Assembly: GCA_029288485.1 (NCBI GenBank)
Contig: JARIHC010000003.1
Coordinates: 1 to 36,818 of the forward strand
Direction of reading: 5' to 3'
DNA length: 36,818 nucleotides
From: Candidatus Saccharimonadota bacterium
GTDB lineage: Bacteria; Patescibacteriota; Saccharimonadia; Saccharimonadales; UBA4665
The notes under the pieces were generated by a model. That model worked only from the letters and a program-made list of their open reading frames with translations, was not told where the DNA came from and ran no database searches. The position numbers were made by a program, and so were the translations under genes. Positions 2,346 through 30,787 of the stretch are shown here, piece after piece; the stretch's first letter is position 1; the number at the start of each line of letters is the position of its first letter.

Positions 2346-3059
2346 TTAATGAGAGCTGGTAGCTTTAGTTGTGGCAACTGCTCGGTGCGGCCACAACAAT
2401 ACAGAGGTCATCACAGTAAAAAATGCTAAATCGAAAATAGCTGATTTGGGTGTAATAACTTGGCCCGCCAGGATTTCTATCCCGCCGGTAAAAAACCCTA
2501 CGCCAACATATACGAGTCCGAGCGTTAGTGAGGTTAAAATGGCTTTGGTATGGCTTTGCTGAGCCGCTGAGCGCAAAAAATAGATGCCTACAGGTATAAA
2601 TAGACTCATTAAAATAACACCGATGACAGCGGTAGAAAAAAACGGATCGCGGTAGTTAATGAAATTATTAGTAAGCTCTAACGTCGAGCGCGGCACAGCA
2701 TATATCCAAGACACTAGGCCAATTATTGCGATAGGGATAGTGGCGGCAAACACCGAAACTTTAGCTCGTAAAACCAGACACCATAATACAGCGGACTGAG
2801 CCACGGCACTGCTATATATGAACACTTCAGCAATTAAATAAGTGGTGCGCAGGGTTTCTAGGTCAGCCGTGAAAAAGCTGGGTAGCGCCAAAACAGCCTG
2901 ACCGACACCCATTAATAAACCAAACCAGCCCAGATACCTAGACAGTTCATTCTTGGAGACTCTATAGTTTGTGTAGCTTCTGTAAAAGAGCAACAAACAT
3001 GCAGCCGAGCCGACGAGCCATGTATACGAGTTGAACGGTACTTCTGATAATGGCACCAT
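2346..3059 (-). CDS. 7-TM membrane protein, paralogue A
   Basis: A 237-residue integral membrane protein with about seven hydrophobic helices (roughly residues 10-27, 42-62, 75-95, 100-122, 145-165, 175-195 and 205-230). It aligns by eye along its length with the protein at 6276-6974: both begin with a P-[IF]-N-x-x-TW segment, then a YR..R/S.N.L.R loop and an LR.TY..A[ED].F helix. The start MVPLSE is chosen because a perfect TATAAT (3066-3071) ends 6 nt before this ATG; the open frame extends 27 codons further upstream across that promoter. The layout resembles 7-TM sensor modules fused to kinases in other bacteria, but no output domain is present. Function unknown. Confidence 0.8.
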   Translation of the reverse strand: MVPLSEVPFNSYTWLVGSAACLLLFYRSYTNYRVSKNELSRYLGWFGLLMGVGQAVLALPSFFTADLETLRTTYLIAEVFIYSSAVAQSAVLWCLVLRAKVSVFAATIPIAIIGLVSWIYAVPRSTLELTNNFINYRDPFFSTAVIGVILMSLFIPVGIYFLRSAAQQSHTKAILTSLTLGLVYVGVGFFTGGIEILAGQVITPKSAIFDLAFFTVMTSVLLWPHRAVATTKATSSH

Positions 3060-3065
3060 GTAAAC

Positions 3066-3071
3066 ATTATA
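3066..3071 (-). promoter_or_regulatory. TATAAT -10 box of 7-TM gene A, leaderless spacing
   Basis: A perfect hexamer on the minus strand, 6 nt before the ATG at 3059. It shares a 66-bp intergenic region with the divergent YHYH gene, whose own -10-like TATATT lies at 3110-3115 on the plus strand. Confidence 0.65.
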
Positions 3072-3125
3072 TAACCAGGGAGCAAGTATGTAGCTGTTTG
3101 AAGTAATGATATATTGGTAGTTAAT

Positions 3126-4196
3126 ATGGAAGGCGCCCAATCTCCGAGCCCGCCAACACCTTCACTGGCTCCCATTAAGCCAGACAAGCTGTCTTTTTGG
3201 CGACGGCATAGAACGCTGCTGGTGGTACTGTTTATAATCTTGATAGCTGGCGGCGGCACATTGGTATACTTACTGCTCAAGCCCGCGCCTCAACCAGTGA
3301 ACGAAGCAGCGGCTCAAGCAAAAATTAAATCAGTCACCAACCATAATCATTGGAAGAATTCGGTTGACCCAACTGCCATTCCTCTGGGTGACGGCAAACT
3401 ATCTACTACACCGCAAACTGGCAATGTCGATACATGCACAACTAACTTGAAGAGCGGCGGCGCTCAGCACGCAGGCTCGTGGATCAATAGCGCTAACAAT
3501 ACCTGGAATTCCAAAACCAAAGTCAATGTGGAGGGGGCTGTCACCTGGCCAGCTGCCAACCACACTGAAAAAGTTAGCGGCACCACCCGAGCAATTACCA
3601 CTAACGATTTGCCCAAAGGGTTCACTACTGGTATCTTCCCTATTGCTCGAAGCGACCCAGCTTATCAGTATGATCGTAACCCTAACAGCATAGGCACACA
3701 AGCACTAACTTACGAGTTACCATTTAATCCTACCGCCGCGGCTGCGCCGCACTGTGTAGGTCTAGGACCAATCGGCGTACTCAATAACGGAGTAGCGTTA
3801 TTTAACGCGCTAGACGCTGGCGGGCGTGACGCGGTAGCGCACGAAACTCAAGATAGCTGCAACGGCCATCCTGACGGAGATGACATGTATCATTACCATG
3901 ACGTTCCGATATGTCTGCGCAATGAAGCTAAGGGCGAATCGACCTTGGCGGGATACGCCCTTGATGGTTACGGAATTTACGTGGAACGGGATTCCAAGGG
4001 TAATTTGCCCACTAACGCCGACCTAGATGAATGCCATGGACGTACGAGCCAGGTATTATGGAACGGTAAAAAGACGAACATATACCATTATGACGCTACT
4101 CTTGAGTACCCCTACACAGTTGGCTGCTACCACGGTACGCCGATTTCAGTTAGCGGAGCGCCCAAAGCAGGCAGCGCACCTGCCAAACATCGCTAG
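3126..4196 (+). CDS. membrane-anchored YHYH-domain protein
   Basis: A 356-residue protein with a Pro-rich cytosolic N-terminus, a basic RRHR stop-transfer signal, one hydrophobic helix (about residues 30-52, LLVVLFIILIAGGGTLVYLL) and a long extracytoplasmic domain. The domain contains the defining Y255-H-Y-H258 motif after DGDDM, a later IYHYDATLEYPYTVGCYHG segment and several Cys that could form disulfides (CTTN, HCVG, SCNGH, PICLR, ECHG, GCYHG). The YHYH family is of unknown biochemistry; clustered His suggests metal binding (inference). ATG 3126 was preferred to an in-frame TTG 12 nt upstream. It is divergent from 7-TM gene A. Confidence 0.88.
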   Translation: MEGAQSPSPPTPSLAPIKPDKLSFWRRHRTLLVVLFIILIAGGGTLVYLLLKPAPQPVNEAAAQAKIKSVTNHNHWKNSVDPTAIPLGDGKLSTTPQTGNVDTCTTNLKSGGAQHAGSWINSANNTWNSKTKVNVEGAVTWPAANHTEKVSGTTRAITTNDLPKGFTTGIFPIARSDPAYQYDRNPNSIGTQALTYELPFNPTAAAAPHCVGLGPIGVLNNGVALFNALDAGGRDAVAHETQDSCNGHPDGDDMYHYHDVPICLRNEAKGESTLAGYALDGYGIYVERDSKGNLPTNADLDECHGRTSQVLWNGKKTNIYHYDATLEYPYTVGCYHGTPISVSGAPKAGSAPAKHR

Positions 4197-4202
4197 CACT
4201 TT

Positions 4203-4487
4203 TTAATCTTGGCCGACAACGATATGGCTTTCCGGTGCACCCTCACCAGCAAGCCGCTCGTAGCCAGAGGGTATGCCCCTTATTTCTGCCTTAGCGCCAG
4301 CGGCATCAAGCGCCACAATCCCAGCACGCCACCCTGGAGGAGGACCATCAAGTAGTTCCCGCTCCCTTAATTCTTCCTCGCTGAGCGGCTCCCCACCAGA
4401 GGAAGTACGCCCTATAGTATCTGCCGCGTCGGCTTCGCCCGCGTCACCCTCTTCCGTATTAGTTTGTTTTCCTGATTCTGCAAACAT
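4203..4487 (-). CDS. acidic hypothetical protein (94 aa)
   Basis: The protein is rich in Glu, Asp, Ala and Gly (MFAESGKQTNTEEGDAGEAD..., then PLSEEELRERELLDGPPPGW) and probably largely disordered apart from a C-terminal GIVALDAAGAKAEIRG segment. A TATAAT box (4495-4500, minus) ends 7 nt before the ATG at 4487, favouring this start over an ATG three codons upstream that overlaps the -10 box. An overlapping plus-strand frame was judged the shadow because it lacks start signals. No function recognised. It converges on the YHYH gene with 6 bp between. Confidence 0.6.
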   Translation of the reverse strand: MFAESGKQTNTEEGDAGEADAADTIGRTSSGGEPLSEEELRERELLDGPPPGWRAGIVALDAAGAKAEIRGIPSGYERLAGEGAPESHIVVGQD

Positions 4488-4494
4488 AGATTCC

Positions 4495-4500
4495 ATTATA
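4495..4500 (-). promoter_or_regulatory. TATAAT -10 box of the acidic protein gene
   Basis: A perfect hexamer on the minus strand, 7 nt before the ATG at 4487; it decides the start codon. Confidence 0.55.
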
Positions 4501-4591
4501 CATACCCGCCCACATTGTATTAAGTAATATATCTTACTATCAGCCGCAAACCATTAGATACACATAAGCATTTTGTTATAATTTTAAGGTA

Positions 4592-6274
4592 GTGTCGTCA
4601 CATCGCGTAATAGCAAAACCTCAAGATCTTGTCGAACCACGAATCGCCAGTTATTTTAAGAGCAGCTGGTATGCTCGTTGGATCATTGTAGCTATTGTAG
4701 CTGGCAGTTTTTTGTTTATTTCAGGTTTGCATCGCCAAGTGGTGGAGATTCTATTAGTTTTAGCCACCGCATACAACGCTCTTCTATTGTTAGGCGCTAA
4801 GCAAAACTGGACAGCAGTTACTGACCAGAGATTAATGCTGGCTATAGATAGTGTATTGGCGTTAATCTTAGTAGTCTTTACCGGCGGCATATCCAGTCCT
4901 TACCTAATGGTGCTGGTATTGGTGGTCGTGTCGGGCGCCTTTTGGTACGGCATATGGGTTACTCTGGTCATTACCGTCTCACAAACACTAGTATTGTTGA
5001 CGGAAAAAGTTCAACAAACTCACAGCGGCGCATCGAAAACATTGATAGTCGAAATGCTTATTCTGGCTACAGTCGGCGCATACGTGGCGTGGTTGACAAG
5101 GTCTGAACGCACCGAACGCAATAAATTAATTGCTTTGGGGACCCAGACCGAGAACGAACGGCAACAACTTTTGGCGCTTATTAACAACATGCGCGACGCG
5201 GTCATAGTTGTCGATAACGATGATGAAATTATTATTTATAACCAAGCCGCCGTGGCGCTATCACACAGCTTAAATGATTTGCACAACGTGCCGCTTAATA
5301 AAGCCGTTCAATTTCTGGATGACAACGGCCATATAGTAGAGCTAAAAACAAAACGATCTAAAGCCGCCTCGGAACGTAAAGACCTGAATGCGAAAGCCGC
5401 CGACGGCAGTTTAATAAACGTTTCTGTTAGTACGGCGCCATACATAGTGGACCGCCAAAACCGCGGTCACGTGTTGATTATTCGAGACATCACACAAGAA
5501 AAAACCATCGAAAAAGAACGGGAAGAGTTTGTGGCCGTGGCTTCGCATGAGCTGCGCACACCGCTAACAATCGCCCAGGGCGATATTTCGTTCTTGCTAT
5601 CACCGCCTTATCTGCCAAAAGATAAGGAATCGGTCGGCATGCTAAACAGTGCTTTGAGCAGCTTGAAGCAGTTATCGCACATTATTAGCGACCTAACCAA
5701 CCTCTCCCAAGTTGAGAGCGAAGAACTTGACGTACAGCTTGAACCGCTTAATCCTGTGGCGCTGCTGCATGAATGCGAGGCGGATTATAGAGATCAAGCC
5801 AAAAGCAAAGGCTTGCAGCTCAATGTACAAATAGACCCTCATTTAAGTTCAGCCACTATTTTGACTAGCCGGTATGTGGTGCGGGAAATTTTGTCTATTT
5901 ATATTTCAAACGCTCTGAAATTTACGGATAAGGGCTCCATTACTCTGAGTTTAACGAATCCTCAAAAAGAAACTTCTGGCGTAACTTTCAGTATTCGCGA
6001 CACCGGGATAGGTATCTCCCAATCCGATCAGAAAAGAATATTTGAAAAATTCTTCCAATCAGAAGATTATGGCTCGAGAGTGCACGGCGGGACTGGCCTC
6101 GGACTTTATATTGCCCGCAGCCTAGCTAACCGCATTACAGCCAAAGTATGGTTTGAAACCGAGCTTGATAAGGGCAGTGCGTTTTATTTGTGGGTGCCGC
6201 CGTATAGCAAACATAAGCAAGACCGCGGCAAGGTAGCAGCCGCCGAAACCAAAGACTTCTTTAGCACCGTTTAA
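4592..6274 (+). CDS. membrane sensor histidine kinase with PAS domain
   Basis: A 560-residue kinase. About six hydrophobic helices lie in residues 26-170, followed by a coiled-coil linker (SERTERNKLIALGTQTENER), a PAS domain (about 195-305, starting LINNMRDAVIVVDNDDEIIIYN) and a HisKA dimerisation domain with the phospho-acceptor H319 in the H-box VASHELRTPLT. The catalytic ATPase domain shows the N-box SNALKFTDKG, G1 DTGIGIS, F-box FEKFFQ and G2 GGTGLGL. All catalytic elements are present. Translation starts at GTG 4592; AAGG 4586-4589 is close upstream and TATAAT is at 4577-4582. It probably senses an envelope or membrane signal. No cognate regulator is adjacent; the receiver at 1193 and the regulator at 7200 are candidates. 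Confidence 0.95.
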   Translation: MSSHRVIAKPQDLVEPRIASYFKSSWYARWIIVAIVAGSFLFISGLHRQVVEILLVLATAYNALLLLGAKQNWTAVTDQRLMLAIDSVLALILVVFTGGISSPYLMVLVLVVVSGAFWYGIWVTLVITVSQTLVLLTEKVQQTHSGASKTLIVEMLILATVGAYVAWLTRSERTERNKLIALGTQTENERQQLLALINNMRDAVIVVDNDDEIIIYNQAAVALSHSLNDLHNVPLNKAVQFLDDNGHIVELKTKRSKAASERKDLNAKAADGSLINVSVSTAPYIVDRQNRGHVLIIRDITQEKTIEKEREEFVAVASHELRTPLTIAQGDISFLLSPPYLPKDKESVGMLNSALSSLKQLSHIISDLTNLSQVESEELDVQLEPLNPVALLHECEADYRDQAKSKGLQLNVQIDPHLSSATILTSRYVVREILSIYISNALKFTDKGSITLSLTNPQKETSGVTFSIRDTGIGISQSDQKRIFEKFFQSEDYGSRVHGGTGLGLYIARSLANRITAKVWFETELDKGSAFYLWVPPYSKHKQDRGKVAAAETKDFFSTV

Positions 6275-6275
6275 T

Positions 6276-6974
6276 TTATTGCCGGTCTGGAGCGTGAGCA
6301 GTAGGACGAAGCAACTGAACCAGCAAAAAAATAGTAAAGAAAACGCCTATTACAGCAGCTGATTGCTGAGTATCGCTGCCCTTATCAAAAATATTATTGT
6401 AAGTAGCGGCTACGCCGACGATAATAAATGTCAAACCGCTAACTAGAGTCTTTAATTTAGCCGATGAAACTGCTTGATTAGGTACTTGGCGTATCAAAAA
6501 GTAGCCGATTGGCATTGCGAGGCCCATATAGATTATTGATTTGAGTATTAAAACTGCAGGCTTGTCGACATACGTTATTAGATACGGAGACGAGGTTAAG
6601 CCAACGTGTGAGGTTAGAGCTTGCAGGGTCATTAGAACTGTAGAAAACGGTATTGTTACTAGGTAGAGGTAATCCAGTCTGATTCGATTTCGCATACCCA
6701 AAAACCATAAAATCCATACCTGCACCTGTAAAGAAATTTGAACGAAAAGGTCAGCTAAGAAATAAGTGACACGCAATATATGCAGGTTTTGTGTCAGTAG
6801 ACCCGGCACACCGTAAAAGAAAAGCGCTGTACCAAAGGTTAAGCCAAGCGCACAGTACATACGAGCCAACGGGTTTTTAGTCCGTCGATAGCTGCGCCAA
6901 CTTTTAAGGCCAAACACGTATAGGCCAGCGGCGCCTAAAGACCATGTAATTGCATTAATTGGGACGTGTATCAT
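6276..6974 (-). CDS. 7-TM membrane protein, paralogue B
   Basis: A 232-residue integral membrane protein with about seven helices and the same helix spacing and N-terminal pattern (MIHVPINAITWSLGAAGLYV) as the protein at 2346-3059. The pair flanks the YHYH gene and the histidine kinase. The start MIHVP matches the start of the paralogue and has a TACGAT box (6981-6986, minus) 6 nt upstream; the open frame could begin 15 codons earlier at 7019. It converges on the kinase gene with a single base between the stops. Function unknown; a sensor or partner role with the kinase is an inference from position. Confidence 0.78.
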   Translation of the reverse strand: MIHVPINAITWSLGAAGLYVFGLKSWRSYRRTKNPLARMYCALGLTFGTALFFYGVPGLLTQNLHILRVTYFLADLFVQISLQVQVWILWFLGMRNRIRLDYLYLVTIPFSTVLMTLQALTSHVGLTSSPYLITYVDKPAVLILKSIIYMGLAMPIGYFLIRQVPNQAVSSAKLKTLVSGLTFIIVGVAATYNNIFDKGSDTQQSAAVIGVFFTIFLLVQLLRPTAHAPDRQ

Positions 6975-7907: not shown

Positions 7908-8674
7908 TTACGGTTGAGCTCGCCTTTCACGCACCGGCAGCTAGTAGATTGATAGCGGAAATAAGCGCCGAGCGGTTGCGTGAGTTGCAACGTTTCGCTG
8001 AACTTGGACGAGTTAGCGCCGGGCTGATTCACGATATTAGCAGCCCGTTGACAGCCGCTATACTGCACCTTGAGCAAGAAGAAAATCGCGGATTGCACAG
8101 TGTCAGGCATGCGCGCCGCAGTATTCGCATGCTGGAGAGATATGTAGAATCAGCCCGGCAGCAGCTTAGACAAGAGAATCAAACTGCTAACTTCTGGGTT
8201 AAAGGCCAGCTGCGCCAAGTAAAAAGAGTAGTTGAGCTGCCGGCCAGTAAGCGCCAAGTTGATTTATGTTTTGCCGTCGATAAAAATTACAGCCTAATTG
8301 GTAATCCCATTAAATTCCAACAAATTATGATTAACTTAATTAATAATTCTATCGATTCCTACGACAATCAGAGCTGCCGGAAAAATAAACCAATAGTGCA
8401 AGTTACAGCCAATGCCTGCTGCCAGTGGCTACAAGTCCAGGTTCAAGATTGGGGTAGCGGCATAGCAAGCGATGAGCTACTTCACCTGTTTGAACCGTTT
8501 TATACAACTAAACAAACTAGCTCAATTGGCGGTCTGGGCATAGGTCTGTCAATCGTGAAACGTTACGTAGAAGATGATTTTGGCGGTAAAGTTGTCGTGA
8601 GCAGCATACCGGGCGATGGCACTGTCGTCAATATTAAATTGCGGCGTGTCTCACCGAAGTCGTACAGTTGTTAG
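7904..8674 (+). CDS. soluble sensor histidine kinase
   Basis: A 256-residue kinase with no membrane segment. It starts with a short helical region, then an H-box variant GLIHDISSPLTA with phospho-acceptor H43, and an ATPase domain with N-box NLINNSIDSYD, G1 DWGSGI, F-box FEPFYTTK and G2 GLGIGLSIV. The HDISSPL sequence resembles the NtrB-like HDLRNPL form rather than HELRTPL. The ATG overlaps the TGA of the upstream regulator by 4 nt (ATGA). With no sensor domain it may read a cytosolic signal or a partner membrane protein such as the 7-TM proteins nearby (inference). Confidence 0.93.
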   Translation: MITVELAFHAPAASRLIAEISAERLRELQRFAELGRVSAGLIHDISSPLTAAILHLEQEENRGLHSVRHARRSIRMLERYVESARQQLRQENQTANFWVKGQLRQVKRVVELPASKRQVDLCFAVDKNYSLIGNPIKFQQIMINLINNSIDSYDNQSCRKNKPIVQVTANACCQWLQVQVQDWGSGIASDELLHLFEPFYTTKQTSSIGGLGIGLSIVKRYVEDDFGGKVVVSSIPGDGTVVNIKLRRVSPKSYSC

Positions 8675-26107: not shown

Positions 26108-26524
26108 TTACGCCTCCCCGCCTTCTGGAGAATCGCTTAATAGACTCTTTATATATGCAATATTAGCCACTCGTGCTAAAAGCAGGGTCTCGCGAGTAGT
26201 CAGCGGATACGATAAATCGTTGTCAGCCTCCATAACAGCTTCATCGCCCTCCAGTTTTATCCTAAAAGAGAAGTCGTGATATTGTTTGCGTTCAGAGGCT
26301 TCCTCTTCACCTTCCTGGTGCCAAGCTGTCACAATAAATAATGGTTCGCCTAGGTGTGCAGGGACAATTTCAACTTTTGAGGGGCCAGGAAGTGCTTCCT
26401 CGCCAAACTTTGCGTTGGCGGCATCATTAACCATGTCGCCGATTGTGCCAGCAAAATCGCCTAGCTGTTCTTCGGCGCCATCGTAGTCTTCACCTAGAAA
26501 TCTGATATGAGTCTCTGACGTCAT
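26108..26524 (-). CDS. small acidic hypothetical protein, partner of the flavoprotein
   Basis: A 138-residue acidic soluble protein. It begins MTSETHIRFLGEDYDGAEEQ and contains a beta-rich centre (KVEIVPAHLGEPLFIVTAWHQ) and an SYPLTTRETLLLARVANIAYIK helix. No family recognised. It is the first gene of a two-gene operon with the flavoprotein; translational coupling suggests that they work together. A TATACT box lies about 9 nt before the ATG. Confidence 0.7.
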   Translation of the reverse strand: MTSETHIRFLGEDYDGAEEQLGDFAGTIGDMVNDAANAKFGEEALPGPSKVEIVPAHLGEPLFIVTAWHQEGEEEASERKQYHDFSFRIKLEGDEAVMEADNDLSYPLTTRETLLLARVANIAYIKSLLSDSPEGGEA

Positions 26525-26588: not shown

Positions 26589-26617
26589 TTGCATATTTTG
26601 TAAAAAAGGTTTATAAT
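26589..26617 (+). promoter_or_regulatory. promoter of the SPFH-hammerhead unit
   Basis: TTGCAT (26589-26594) and a perfect TATAAT (26612-26617) are 17 bp apart. The predicted start near 26624 gives a leader of about 160 nt before the SPFH ATG, the longest leader in the window. The promoter lies in AT-rich DNA like the rest of the chromosome. Confidence 0.75.
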
Positions 26618-26650
26618 TAACATTTGAATATTCCTTTGGTTTATATACTT

Positions 26651-26757
26651 CGGGCGAGGGTGGAGTATGTAGACGAGAGGATTTTTCTCTCGCGGCAGGT
26701 GTGAATTTTACGCCTATTGGTAATTGTCGTTATACCCGGGATGCGGACGATCCGCAT
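26651..26757 (+). ncRNA. structured 5' leader RNA, class unknown
   Basis: Three perfect or near-perfect hairpins fill the leader: CGAGAG/CTCTCG (26674-26692, 7-nt loop), AGGTGT/ACGCCT (26697-26715, one G-T pair, 7-nt loop) and ATGCGGA/TCCGCAT (26741-26757, CGA loop). GGGT (26658-26661) can pair with ACCC (26734-26737) to close the first two into a three-way junction. The last hairpin ends about 18 nt before the AAGGAA ribosome site. It could be a regulatory leader or part of a larger RNA; it does not match a riboswitch I recognise. Confidence 0.5.
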
Positions 26758-26786
26758 AGTTGTTTTACGTCACAAAGGAAAGAGGC

Positions 26787-27863
26787 ATGCCAGAACGAGA
26801 GAATTCATTCTGGATCGATAGAAGTGGCCGTGTCGATAGACTCACTGGCAAGGCATGGTGCGTCATAGTCACTGCCGTGATCCTCGGCCTGTGGGGATTC
26901 ATTTTCGCTATCACCACGATTACCGAATATCGCAGCACCCCCGGTTCAGGCGAAGTCGGCGTCGTGCGTAACGGCAGCGACCCTTGGTGGCTGCCCGACT
27001 GGTTCGACAACCACCAGATCCGCGGCATCGTGGAAAATGGGTCCGGAAACACCGGAATCGGACTGGGTAGTGATATCCACTATTACCCTGTCTCGACTCA
27101 GCAGCGTTTCTTCACCATGAAGACCTGCTACTCGCATGACGACAAGGCTCATACGAATCCGGAAGTCTGCCCTGGTGCTGACGGTCTGGCTATCCAGGTG
27201 CCAACGTCTGACGGTGTCGAGGCCACGATTAGCGGCACCTTCTACCTGAACACCGTGTTCGATAACAGCGACGAAGGCAAGGAAAGTCTCGAAGATTTCG
27301 ACGAACAGTTCTCGACGAGGACCTTCGAAGGCAAGCATCCCTACAGCGGCACTCAAGGGTGGAAGAATTTCCTGGCTGCAATCGTTGAGCCGATCATCCA
27401 GAACAACATGCGGCAGACCGTTTCGGGCATCCAGTGCGCGGAACTCGTTTCATCATGTGCGCTGGTACAGAACAGTAGCGGAAAAACTGGTTTCGCAGCC
27501 ACCAAGGAAGGCGAAGCCAACGTTCAGCAGGTTGAGAACAACATCAACGAACACCTCAACTCTGACCTGGAAAGCACGCTTGGAAAGAAATACTTCCAGA
27601 ACGTGCAGTTCCGTCTCAGCAAGGTCGAGCTCCCCCTGAAGATCCAGGAGGCTATCGACGGCGCCCAGGCCGCATTCGCCCGCGTTTCTGAATCGCAGGC
27701 AGCAGTCAAGAAGTCCCAGTACGAAGCCAAGGCAAACTCAATCCGCCAGCAGGGCTACAACAAGTGCCCGACTTGCGCGGCCATTGACCAGACCAAGGCC
27801 ATTCCGCCGAACGTGCGCGTGTGGGCTCCTGGCTCGAAGGCAGCAATCGCTGTCGGCCGATAG
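26787..27863 (+). CDS. SPFH/band-7 domain membrane protein, foreign codon usage
   Basis: A 358-residue protein. A short charged N-terminus precedes one hydrophobic helix (about 18-43, VIVTAVILGLWGFIFAITTI), then an SPFH (stomatin/prohibitin) domain (about 45-275) entered by STPGSGEVGVVRNG and containing TSDGVEATISGTFYLNT. A coiled-coil stretch (AIDGAQAAFARVSESQAAVKK) and an end with CPTC and KAIPPNVRVWAPG follow; this last motif recalls actinobacterial and actinophage SPFH proteins as I remember them. SPFH proteins form membrane ring cages. ATG 26787 follows AAGGAA by 6 nt; an upstream TTG is less likely. Leu is CTG or CTC in 16 of 17 codons, never TTA or CTA, unlike its neighbours. Confidence 0.85.
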   Translation: MPERENSFWIDRSGRVDRLTGKAWCVIVTAVILGLWGFIFAITTITEYRSTPGSGEVGVVRNGSDPWWLPDWFDNHQIRGIVENGSGNTGIGLGSDIHYYPVSTQQRFFTMKTCYSHDDKAHTNPEVCPGADGLAIQVPTSDGVEATISGTFYLNTVFDNSDEGKESLEDFDEQFSTRTFEGKHPYSGTQGWKNFLAAIVEPIIQNNMRQTVSGIQCAELVSSCALVQNSSGKTGFAATKEGEANVQQVENNINEHLNSDLESTLGKKYFQNVQFRLSKVELPLKIQEAIDGAQAAFARVSESQAAVKKSQYEAKANSIRQQGYNKCPTCAAIDQTKAIPPNVRVWAPGSKAAIAVGR

Positions 27864-27869
27864 TGACAC

Positions 27870-28098
27870 TCTCCTGATTTAAGGAGATTAACAATTAAGG
27901 CAGTTTGAAGCCTCTAATTCAAGTGAAGACCTGGGGACAGGCCGGCGGGAAATCATCATTGAGCGACAGCTCACTGAAAACCCGCCGCGAAGACCGGTTG
28001 ATCCGTCGAGTCCGCTACAGGATTCCGCATCATTCCGTTTTCTTACAGAGGTAGGAAAATTCGTCGCAGCCTTTCGGCTCCGAATTATTCACTACCTT
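27870..28098 (+). ncRNA. highly structured 3' non-coding RNA of the SPFH unit
   Basis: Starting 6 nt after the SPFH stop, a series of perfect stems is visible: TCTCCT/AGGAGA (27870-27887); AATTA-AGGC/GCCT-TAATT (27893-27919, one bulge); CCTG/CAGG with a GGGA tetraloop (27930-27941); CGGCGGG (27943-27949) with CCCGCCG (27981-27987) enclosing TGAGC/GCTCA (27960-27973); and GAGGTAG (28048-28054) with CTACCTT (28092-28098) enclosing AATTCG/CGAATT (28058-28063, 28081-28086) and AGCC/GGCT. I found no coding frame with start signals. The hammerhead ribozyme begins 3 nt later. The RNA class is unknown to me. Confidence 0.7.
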
Positions 28099-28100
28099 CC

Positions 28101-28151
28101 GCACTCTACGAATGCGTGTTCGTACTGACGAGTCCAAAAGGACGAAAGTGC
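28101..28151 (+). ncRNA. type III hammerhead self-cleaving ribozyme
   Basis: All conserved parts are present and properly spaced. Stem III GCAC-T (28101-28105) pairs with A-GTGC (28147-28151); the cleavage triplet is CTC with H17 = C28106; stem I TACGAA/TTCGTA (28107-28112, 28119-28124) has loop TGCGTG; the core CTGACGA is 28125-28131; stem II GTCC/GGAC (28132-28135, 28140-28143) has loop AAAA; GAAA is 28144-28147. The open stem is III, so it is type III. Cleavage between 28106 and 28107 would leave a 2',3'-cyclic phosphate on the upstream RNA. The loops could make the usual stem I-II contact. Confidence 0.93.
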
Positions 28152-28169
28152 CAATTAGCTAACTTCTTT

Positions 28170-28207
28170 GATAAGCGTCGCTCAATGATGATTGTGCGAA
28201 TCTTATC
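28170..28207 (+). other. long hairpin closing the SPFH-hammerhead unit
   Basis: GATAAG (28170-28175) pairs with CTTATC (28202-28207) and encloses CGC-T-CAAT / ATTG-T-GCG (28179-28198) with a GATG loop. It ends 9 nt before the stop of the convergent ATPase gene, so it may terminate the unit; there is no strong U-tract. Confidence 0.5.
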
Positions 28208-28216
28208 TGTTAAATA

Positions 28217-30787
28217 TTAGCGTTTAAATATAGTATGTTCGGTTGGTTCGTTATTGTCGGCAATGCTGGTCGTATTTTTCTTACTGCGACGGCGACGGCG
28301 ACGCTTAGGCTTAATAATCTCTACCAACGAACCCACTGCTGCGTGCCCCATACCGTTGGCATGGTCAGCAGGGTCAGTTTTCTGCTGTTGCGCGTCTGGT
28401 TTCTGGGCCGCTGGTTTATTATGTGTCGTGGGTTTCCGCTCGCTTGCCTGTTTAGGCTTTTGTTTGGCAGCTCTGGGTTGATTATCCGGTTTGGCTTTCA
28501 GTTCATAGCGCTCATGGATATAATCTTCGGCAGCCTGGCGTTTAACAGCGTGCTGAGCCCGCGAGTGTTTAACTATATTAGCGGTCTCATCGTAGTGCTG
28601 CTCTGGCAGATCCAGCGTGGTAGCCGAGAACGCCGGTACCTTTTCGCCGCCGATAGTCATATTGATCACAAAATTACGATTGTCCATGTGTACTAAGTCG
28701 TACTCTTCAAATTTTGGCTCAAAGTAGCGCTGCATGCTGCGCGCGTCATCGGCACCCATCCGGAAAGCTACCATTGAACCAACATTGCCGAATACAGCGT
28801 CCTTAACATCCTGCGACATCTGGGCTATGTATTGGTTGGCTACTGTAAGATTTAGAGCATACTTGCGGGCCTCGCTCAAGATGGTAGCGAAACTGTCTGT
28901 TGCAAAGTTCTGGAATTCGTCAACATATAGATAGAACGGAATGCGCTCTTCGGCAGCGATGTTAGCGCGGCTCATGGCTGCCAACTGGATTTTGGTAACT
29001 AAAAGCGCACCAAGCAGCGCGGCGTTGTCTTCCCCAACCTGGCCGCGGCTAAGGTTCACTATTAAAATTTTGCGCTCGTCCATGATTTGACGAATATTGA
29101 AACTGCTCTTTGGCTGACCAATAATGTTGCGCACCAGCGGACTAGCCGTGAAGGCGCCAACTTTATTCAAGACCGGTGCTACTGCCTCGGCCGCAAACTT
29201 ATCATTCCAAGTAGCAAATTCTACTTCCCAGAACTGGCGCACAACAGGATCAGTAACGTATTGCATGACCGTTTTACGGAAAGCTTTATCGGTTAGCAAA
29301 CGAGTAATATCCAGCATGGTAGATTCCGGATATTCCAATAGTGCCAGCAGACTGTAGCGCAAAATATACTCTAGCCGAGGACCCCAGGACTCAAACATTC
29401 GCTTCAACACGCCTATGAGCTCAGAAGCAGTGTGAGTCCGCAGCATAGGGTCAGGCACTTCCATAGGGTTAAAAGCAATTGGAAACTCGGTGTCGGCCGG
29501 ATTAAAGTAAATCACATCTTGAGCTCGGTGGGCTGGTATGCGTTTTAGGGTGCTCATTGCATAGTCGCCGTGGGGGTCAATCACCGCAAAGCCGAATGGA
29601 CTATGGATATCGGATATGGTGAGAAGCTCCAAAAGGCCAGATTTACCGACACCAGTTTGACCCAGAATATATAAGTGGCGGCCACGGTCGACCCGTTGCA
29701 GCCCAAACGCCATGTTTTGGCCCCGGAAGTTAGTTGCGGCTATCGGGCTAATTTCTTGGCGGTTTTGTTCTGTAATAATTGGCAGATTAGCTGGCGGTTC
29801 GGCAGTCTGAGAGCGCGCCCACAGAATAAGCGGTGTTTCAACATTGGTGTGCGGCAAGTGGCACAGAGTAGCAACTTCTTCGATATTTAAAACAAAGGGT
29901 TTTTTACCCAGCTGACGGTGTTGATATTGAGTCAGCACAGCTGGATCCGATGCTACCCTTGCCTGCTCAAAACCGTTTAGATATGTAGTATTGAACTGTT
30001 TATAGCTAGCAACAATTGATTGGACCCTAAGAGCAGCTTGGTGGGACGAGGAGTTACCCCTATAAATAATGCGAAGAGTGGTTTCAAAGGCCAATTTATG
30101 GCTCTTTTCTTCTGCGCCGCTGGCGCGGGCTTGCTGGTATTCGCTAAGTTTAGGTGCCGGTGCGCCTTTGCTGTCTGCAGGCGGAGCCCACATTGCCTTT
30201 AAAATAGTACCCGGACCGGACCCAGATGCCCCGCCGCGCAGGCCGCTGACATAGCGCTCGCTTTTACGATGCCAATTCTGAGCGGCCGGTTGCATAACCA
30301 GCTGTATCCAGGCTTCCTCGTTTTCTTCAAACTTAGCAAGTGTAGCCGTAATAGCAGCTAGCGGATCTACCTCGAAACTCTGGAACGTCTTAATTGGCAG
30401 CGCAGAATTATTGACTAGTTTGAGTTCGGCAGCCAGCATTGACGTAGCCGCTGTCTCGTTGCTGCGCGAAAAATCGGTAACTTCAGAGATTTGCACACTT
30501 GGATATTGAGCGTATATTTGTTCTTCAACAAAATTTTTCAGATACTGGGGCACACATACGTAAAAGCCGATGCGCTTTTTCTGAACAGCAATCTCAAAAC
30601 TGATACGCACATGATGATGGACGGTTCCAAACCTTTTCTGGGTTGGCACCATAAGCAAACCATGCAACGAGGCAAACATCTGCTCGGCAGCCAGCTCCTT
30701 TTTGTCATTAGTGCGCGGCACCTGGAGCAGAAGCATGATAGTCTCGTTGTCTAGGTCTTCTTGTTCCTGTTTGGTTAGTTTTGACAT
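28217..30787 (-). CDS. HerA/TraD-like DNA-binding ATPase (type IV coupling-protein class)
   Basis: An 856-residue motor-ATPase protein of the type common in CPR genomes. The N-terminal ~360 residues include a helical, nuclease-free region. Walker A is GQTGVGKSG with K382; the downstream FAVIDPHGDYA and the Walker B FYLYVDEFQNFA with D623-E624 fit the FtsK/HerA/TraG superfamily; the ANQYIAQM motif resembles sensor motifs in this group. The last ~110 residues are basic and low in complexity (KPKRRRRRRSKKN), suited to nucleic-acid binding. No relaxase or mating-pair genes are adjacent. A TAAAAT box 6 nt before the ATG indicates a leaderless transcript. Confidence 0.85.
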   Translation of the reverse strand: MSKLTKQEQEDLDNETIMLLLQVPRTNDKKELAAEQMFASLHGLLMVPTQKRFGTVHHHVRISFEIAVQKKRIGFYVCVPQYLKNFVEEQIYAQYPSVQISEVTDFSRSNETAATSMLAAELKLVNNSALPIKTFQSFEVDPLAAITATLAKFEENEEAWIQLVMQPAAQNWHRKSERYVSGLRGGASGSGPGTILKAMWAPPADSKGAPAPKLSEYQQARASGAEEKSHKLAFETTLRIIYRGNSSSHQAALRVQSIVASYKQFNTTYLNGFEQARVASDPAVLTQYQHRQLGKKPFVLNIEEVATLCHLPHTNVETPLILWARSQTAEPPANLPIITEQNRQEISPIAATNFRGQNMAFGLQRVDRGRHLYILGQTGVGKSGLLELLTISDIHSPFGFAVIDPHGDYAMSTLKRIPAHRAQDVIYFNPADTEFPIAFNPMEVPDPMLRTHTASELIGVLKRMFESWGPRLEYILRYSLLALLEYPESTMLDITRLLTDKAFRKTVMQYVTDPVVRQFWEVEFATWNDKFAAEAVAPVLNKVGAFTASPLVRNIIGQPKSSFNIRQIMDERKILIVNLSRGQVGEDNAALLGALLVTKIQLAAMSRANIAAEERIPFYLYVDEFQNFATDSFATILSEARKYALNLTVANQYIAQMSQDVKDAVFGNVGSMVAFRMGADDARSMQRYFEPKFEEYDLVHMDNRNFVINMTIGGEKVPAFSATTLDLPEQHYDETANIVKHSRAQHAVKRQAAEDYIHERYELKAKPDNQPRAAKQKPKQASERKPTTHNKPAAQKPDAQQQKTDPADHANGMGHAAVGSLVEIIKPKRRRRRRSKKNTTSIADNNEPTEHTIFKR

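Follow-up and report, generated by a model that had tools for sequence, protein, structure and literature searches.

Foreign-codon genes with structured RNA and hammerhead or terminator 3' ends in Saccharibacteria: candidate translation-gated messages for a host cell

We analyzed a 36,818-nucleotide stretch of a Saccharibacteria contig (the window) and found that a unit at positions 26589-28151 of its + strand belongs to a larger class. As judged from sequence, members of this class consist of a cargo gene or short operon with foreign codon usage, a stable 3' hairpin, and a defined 3' end, which is predicted to be made by a type III hammerhead ribozyme or, in some units, by an intrinsic terminator. 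In many units, a leader hairpin appears to compete with a RAGATH-10-like hairpin over the Shine-Dalgarno sequence, and the 5' and 3' ends carry a unit-specific complement. The architecture of the class is well supported. Its best explanation as a whole, to which we give a probability of about 45%, is that the units encode durable, translation-gated mRNAs for the host cell; this would entail transcription, cleavage and closing in vivo, gating, export, and translation in the host. We found no described gene class that joins foreign codons, a Shine-Dalgarno-switching leader, a panhandle, and a ribozyme or terminator 3' end. Searches of the open-access literature turned up no article that deals with hammerheads in either Saccharibacteria or CPR bacteria. 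An earlier note had described the window unit as an SPFH gene within a ribozyme-bearing RNA unit; that observation is confirmed as real, yet it is one example among many, and the interpretation attached to it is partly supported.

The unit in the window

The features of the unit are as follows.

26589..26617, + strand: promoter-like site TTGCAT-N17-TATAAT (consensus match only)
26620..26786, + strand: structured 5' leader (fold z -3.2)
26631..26638, + strand: UUCCUUUG, possible anti-Shine-Dalgarno (minimum-energy fold pairing with 26773-26780)
26773..26785, + strand: Shine-Dalgarno region CAAAGGAAAGAGG (read from sequence)
26787..27863, + strand: cargo gene for an SPFH/Band 7 membrane protein of 358 aa, foreign codon usage (Pfam PF01145)
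27864..28047, + strand: structured 3' UTR with several hairpins (27861-28215, z -5.2)
27951..27967, + strand: left arm of a 17-bp perfect inverted repeat
28048..28098, + strand: terminal hairpin 5' of the cleavage site, common to the LemA unit at C9:93.5k (fold)
28101..28151, + strand: type III hammerhead (RF00008, 36.8 bits; family model R2, 74.1 bits; covariation in 116 relatives)
28101-28105/28147-28151, + strand: hammerhead stem III
between 28106 and 28107, + strand: predicted cleavage
28107-28112/28119-28124, + strand: hammerhead stem I
28125-28131 and 28144-28146, + strand: hammerhead core CUGACGA and GAA
28132-28135/28140-28143, + strand: hammerhead stem II
28177..28193, + strand: right arm of the inverted repeat, past the hammerhead

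The 17-bp-spaced promoter read by the earlier note is present, with a weak -35 element (TTGCAT, 26589-26594) and a perfect -10 element (TATAAT, 26612-26617). The leader is folded, as the note had it: 26620-26790 reaches -55.7 kcal/mol (z -3.2, with 1 of 200 shuffles equally good), and in the minimum-energy fold the Shine-Dalgarno sequence CAAAGGAA (26773-26780) is paired with the leader start UUCCUUUG. This leader matches neither the canonical leader model described below (R3) nor, in an Rfam search, RAGATH-10 (RF03147), which sister units of other genera do match. The cargo is a membrane SPFH gene (Band_7 E 1.2e-9; 38.9 bits against a Pfam cut-off of 23.6), and its foreign codon usage is evident in a GC3 of 0.69 versus 0.46 in the neighbouring genes.

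Behind the gene lies about 240 nt of strongly paired 3' RNA. The stretch 27861-28215 folds at -120.5 kcal/mol (z -5.2, with 0 of 100 shuffles as good), and this fold includes the last hairpin that the note had placed after the ribozyme. The hammerhead called complete there does have all of its core elements, namely, CUGANGA, GAA, a UH cleavage triplet, and three stems in type III order. Its Rfam RF00008 score (36.8 bits, E 7.6e-6) does not reach the gathering score of 48.5 bits, which is a search threshold and no chemical criterion; the copies in this genome score 28.7 to 38.8 bits, and covariation in the family (below) is decisive. From its sequence, 28101-28151 is a consensus type III hammerhead with predicted self-cleavage. 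It is located where a ribozyme that sets the 3' end of the SPFH mRNA, as the note had proposed, would be expected, and the parts are predicted to form one transcription unit. The 17-bp inverted repeat, which the note does not mention (nor does it mention the pairing of the leader start with the Shine-Dalgarno sequence), flanks the hammerhead and could control cleavage. An Rfam search of the unit found no retron, group I or II intron, or other RNA.

Both flanking genes, a 138-aa protein of unknown function (26108-26524) and a HerA/TrwB-like ATPase ending at 28217, are on the opposite strand, and a flavin oxidoreductase-like protein is also encoded in the neighbourhood. Among these neighbours there are no integrase, phage, or mobility genes. 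GC content shifts at the borders of the unit, as it would at a faulty assembly join or binning error. No such join is suggested, because further contigs of this genome carry sister units. Given six sister hammerheads elsewhere in the genome and dozens of independent genomes that show this architecture, the chance that the window unit is an artefact is practically negligible.

A family of hammerhead units with varied cargo

The window genome (0.91 Mb, 9 contigs) holds partial copies of the hammerhead-flanking DNA elsewhere; for example, a 103-nt window stretch that includes the hammerhead is 83% identical to C9:93509-93614. Searches with RF00008 and our own model identified seven hammerheads, the window one and six sisters. 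Six of the seven each stand behind a different gene. For the seventh (C2:182.9 kb), the gene caller reported no ORF, although one is readable by eye. Sister cargo includes a pair that resembles TPM and LemA by eye without a Pfam match, one coiled-coil protein, and, in three cases, a small protein; membrane segments are present in two of these three. Six of the genome's own hammerhead copies share 37 invariant columns. A model built from the six best hammerheads (R1) found matches in 70 of 295 relatives, with up to 18 per genome.

We then aligned 116 hammerheads from fetched stretches (R2). Covariation in this alignment was 0.79, versus 0.27 when shuffled and at most 0.13 for slid structures; 97.4% of the pair cells held standard pairs, 554 cells were double changed versus 160 when shuffled, and compensatory changes occurred in all three stems. 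One further candidate, at locus L015, was a weak match only and was rejected. Among contigs of GTDB genomes, the core pattern was found in at least 116 stretches. Of the 80 matches listed, about 59 carried Patescibacteria names (Saccharibacteria and many Parcubacteria and Microgenomates groups), 10 belonged to other phyla, and 11 had no name.

The association of a hammerhead with an SPFH gene was not repeated. When genome and viral contigs were scanned with patterns of the window's SPFH protein, no SPFH relatives emerged; none were found in phages, a plasmid collection gave one match, and the fetched loci contained no second SPFH-hammerhead unit. Measured against the refuting condition that the note itself set, the result is mixed. 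SPFH and hammerhead are no fixed pair. What recurs together, in more than 100 units with other cargo, is a hammerhead, a structured 3' end, and a foreign-codon gene. This recurrence points to a general expression cassette rather than an SPFH system.

The note's idea of a phage-derived module is borne out in part. Two strict hammerhead patterns gave no match in viral contigs, a looser one gave at least 120, and we rejected the notion that such hammerheads are absent from viruses. Some cargo is phage-like as well (Tad4, below). However, viral type III hammerheads stand about 30 nt after the stop codon, no canonical leader was found in their contigs, and the codon shift of the genes before them is small (+0.07, 10 of 15). 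In three viral contigs (L343 5991, L363 2871, and L390 9544), the gene in front of the hammerhead begins with MCVIIIKQ.GK, an arrangement that recurs in phages.

Three observations concern where units and hammerheads are found. Insertion of the window unit at a site that is empty elsewhere was considered and rejected: of about 28 relatives with an orthologue of the downstream ATPase, most have no unit beside it, but with rearranged neighbours, and with a different unit occupying this slot in one relative (G001), there is no clean empty site. Units of at least five genomes lie directly behind an apparent dprA end (L008 7685, L064 3856, L245, L248, and L260 13409), a possible preferred slot that is based only on reading the upstream sequence. 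In a Parcubacteria contig (L089, JANLIU010000041.1), ten type III hammerheads fall within 4 kb (2472-6531) around a helicase-like gene, spaced about 130 to 450 nt apart. A structured RNA is repeated between them, and most of the intervals lack a cargo ORF; this array is a different use of the type III hammerhead.

Codon usage sets the cargo apart from its surroundings. With a simple gene caller, a same-strand ORF was found just 5' of 105 of the 116 hammerheads, and its GC3 exceeded that of neighbouring genes in 101 of these 105 (mean, +0.22). Under a stricter coding score, cargo GC3 was higher in 87 of 89 (Wilcoxon 3e-16), while short native ORFs of the same loci were above in only 52%. The GTDB loci, which partly overlap with the first set and were read with a cruder gene caller, showed the shift in 55 of 70 (mean, +0.14). 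TTA makes up 1.2% of leucine codons in cargo versus 14.1% in native genes. In the window genome, pooled cargo (1764 codons) uses TTA, CTA, and ACA at 0.00, 0.01, and 0.00, versus 0.20, 0.19, and 0.21 in native genes; TTA and ACA do not occur once, and CTA and ATA are nearly absent. Twenty-three genes of its ribosomal-protein region show native codon usage without a shift, so high expression does not explain the shift in this genome, and we rejected expression-linked codon bias there on that test. The cargo fits a high-GC actinobacterial host only imperfectly, since AGG is not avoided (9.5% in cargo versus 6.8%) and GAA is still preferred in the cargo of the window genome. Cargo GC3 is also partly correlated with native GC3 (rho 0.43).

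Most of the cargo belongs to no family. The families we recognized are Tad4 anti-Thoeris proteins, solo RNA polymerase alpha-CTD proteins, glycosyltransferases, a Nudix protein, and DUF2807, and one operon encodes a ThiF-like E1, a weak JAB match, and a ubiquitin-like protein. The alpha-CTD-like cargo is found in two genera (L246:4095-4508 and L051:4839-5300). Tad4 cargo is present at L051:10214-10549 and L236:3941-4348, the two strongest Tad4 matches among 290 relatives and both accompanied by hammerheads; L052 and L219, considered for the same family, were rejected. A HIT protein gene (L237) shows native codon usage and could stand beside its hammerhead by chance.

The main rival to the host-message explanation is that the cargo genes are accessory ones, taken up recently from hosts or their phages and translated in Saccharibacteria, with foreign codons as a donor relic and the hammerhead and hairpins as a standard 3'-end kit reused by cassettes. 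The window SPFH protein has its nearest match in the actinobacterium Nonomuraea (37% identity), Tad4 cargo is up to 54.5% identical to Bacillus phage proteins and is joined by other phage-type cargo, and cargo at one chromosomal slot differs between genera, as swapping would give. Against such a relic stand the lack of mobility genes beside the window unit and the codon shift in almost every unit across dozens of genera. Moreover, six cargo families common to different genomes (31 to 63% identity), DUF2807 among them, keep the device and lie above native GC3 in all members. DUF2807 occurs in only 3 of 290 relatives, and its three main copies, from three genera and 31 to 51% identical, all have a hammerhead behind them and keep the codon shift; a weak second homologue in G236 has no hammerhead and a native-like GC3. 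Old, vertically inherited cargo with foreign codon usage is thus partly seen. This persistence of shift and device argues against recent capture as the whole story, with repeated exchange possible, and we consider the donor relic possible but on balance improbable.

A possible leader switch, 3' hairpin, and panhandle

Many units share a conserved leader hairpin, formed by CACAAGGUGAG and CUCACCUUGUG with an inner stem (covariation 0.55 versus 0.24). Its 3' strand is able to pair instead with the downstream Shine-Dalgarno sequence, and that alternative is Rfam RAGATH-10 (RF03147), matched by several units at up to 72.9 bits (G227) and more weakly elsewhere. The two pairings would act as a switch that covers or frees the Shine-Dalgarno sequence. 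A model of this leader (R3) has matches in 43 of 285 genomes; of the 42 leader genomes compared, 33 contain hammerheads as well (Fisher 4e-17). For 40 of 77 leader matches, the list has a same-strand hammerhead no more than 3 kb behind. Few loci outside Saccharibacteria carry the conserved leader.

The hammerhead follows the stop codon at a median of 99 nt, and the stretch between them is strongly folded (median z -4.6 versus shuffles, 105 units). Many units have the motif GUCUGCUUGUCA just 5' of the cleavage site, and many leaders contain UGACAAGCAGAC. In addition, many units have in the 5' strand of the leader a unit-specific complement of 10 to 21 nt to the 3' end, which would close a panhandle, such as UGACAAGCAAGGAUAG with CUAUCCUUGCUUGUCA and AAUCAGGGAGAGAC with GUCUCUCCCUGAUU. 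A complement score of at least 10 was reached by 41 of 105 units, compared with 7.9% when pairs were swapped and 3% when sequences were shuffled. The panhandle and the local hairpin may compete, since they have a 3' strand in common. A nearly identical GC-rich hairpin, CCCCCTCAGGG...CCCTGAGGGG, occurs in the 3' UTRs of two L008 units (8568-8625 and 2672-2715) whose cargo is unrelated.

The window unit itself has neither the canonical leader nor a significant panhandle (best complement, 8.6 versus a shuffled 95% value of 11.3), which counts against the host-message explanation. Another unit of the same genome, at C2:254 kb, has both, the panhandle by a narrow margin (R3, 80.7 bits; complement, 11.3 versus 10.6).

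Twenty fetched leader matches with no listed hammerhead behind them served as an independent check. Their unit-specific 3' complement scored at least 12 in 17 of 20 loci versus 5% of swapped pairs. A sensitive search placed a hammerhead behind the leader in one locus (L311), and in two (L309 and L319) hammerhead matches lay before it; an Rfam search found no other ribozyme in its place. In three of the 20 (L302, L307, and L320), a clear intrinsic terminator directly follows the panhandle, which suggests that having a defined end there outweighs how it is made.

A transcript that appears built for stability throughout, under a leader resembling an ordinary translational switch, could also be a stable, regulated native message used within the Saccharibacterial cell. 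Selection for RNA structure or durability, and not for a different ribosome, would then account for its GC-rich codons. We consider this unlikely: the bias is specific to particular codons (TTA, CTA, ACA, and ATA) and unlike that of highly expressed native genes, and the cargo types act on other cells. An RNA-mobilised element (a retrozyme or a viroid-like circular RNA) with DNA copies that bear different genes would likewise account for hammerheads with 5'-3' complementarity, which circular RNAs use, and for near-identical 3' modules recurring in a genome. However, each unit has a single hammerhead with a promoter 5' of it, the cargo differs in every unit, and some units have a terminator instead of a ribozyme; the window unit has one hammerhead and the 17-bp inverted repeat, with no tandem hammerheads or long terminal repeats. 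Such an origin is very improbable.

A possible path to the host cell, and known systems

In the host-message explanation, the promoter would be read inside the Saccharibacterial cell, and the transcript would cut itself after ACUC, leaving a hairpin-guarded 2',3'-cyclic-phosphate end. Pairing of the 5' and 3' ends would give a compact, nuclease-resistant closed loop, and the leader would bar or admit ribosomes depending on the message being whole and closed. Such durable, gated messages would pass to the host bacterium and be translated there, with codons suited to that cell. Placement of the SPFH membrane protein in the host would follow. The codon usage could also be donor inheritance, and to our knowledge no RNA export route has been described. 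We give export somewhat less than even odds, and marginally lower odds to full inter-bacterial mRNA delivery, in which closed-loop, gated mRNAs in host codon usage would be translated in the host into effectors, hypothetically anti-defence proteins, RNA polymerase alpha-CTD proteins, and membrane or surface proteins. Cargo such as Tad4, alpha-CTD, glycosyltransferases, and the ubiquitin-like operon, which are types that work within another bacterium or upon it, counts in favour of delivery.

Cultivated Patescibacteria are obligate epibionts (PMC12206443). TM7x, for example, alters the phage sensitivity of its host. How such epibionts change their hosts, including phage sensitivity, is the question touched here, and the units supply candidate effectors that can be tested. 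Should the messages work in the host, one bacterium would express genes in another through RNA; if they do not, the foreign codon usage kept across dozens of genera still needs an answer.

With regard to known systems, the window cargo gene is a member of the SPFH/Band 7 proteins (PF01145), but it is one among many unrelated cargoes and not a defining part of the class. RAGATH RNAs are those associated with genes that are associated with twister and hammerhead ribozymes. The leaders of several units match RAGATH-10, whose main helix covers the Shine-Dalgarno sequence. The Rfam family, however, describes only this Shine-Dalgarno-hiding half, without the competing hairpin or the panhandle strand, and does not include the link to cargo, 3' end, and codon usage; the units thus give this orphan RNA a context and a candidate mechanism. 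Retrozymes, viroid-like circular RNAs, and Obelisks have type III hammerheads and strong self-pairing. The units described here share both features but, unlike those RNAs, are promoter-driven DNA genes with variable cargo and without tandem hammerheads or terminal repeats. Finally, bacterial and prophage hammerheads have been proposed to cut long phage transcripts into operon- or gene-length mRNAs, and cleavage in vivo was reported around the anti-restriction gene ardA (PMC3088659). Like the units here, they place a type III core after a gene. In contrast, our units are dispersed on the chromosome, the window one is not near integrases, and the class adds a stable 3' hairpin, a leader switch, a 5'-3' complement, and a codon shift.
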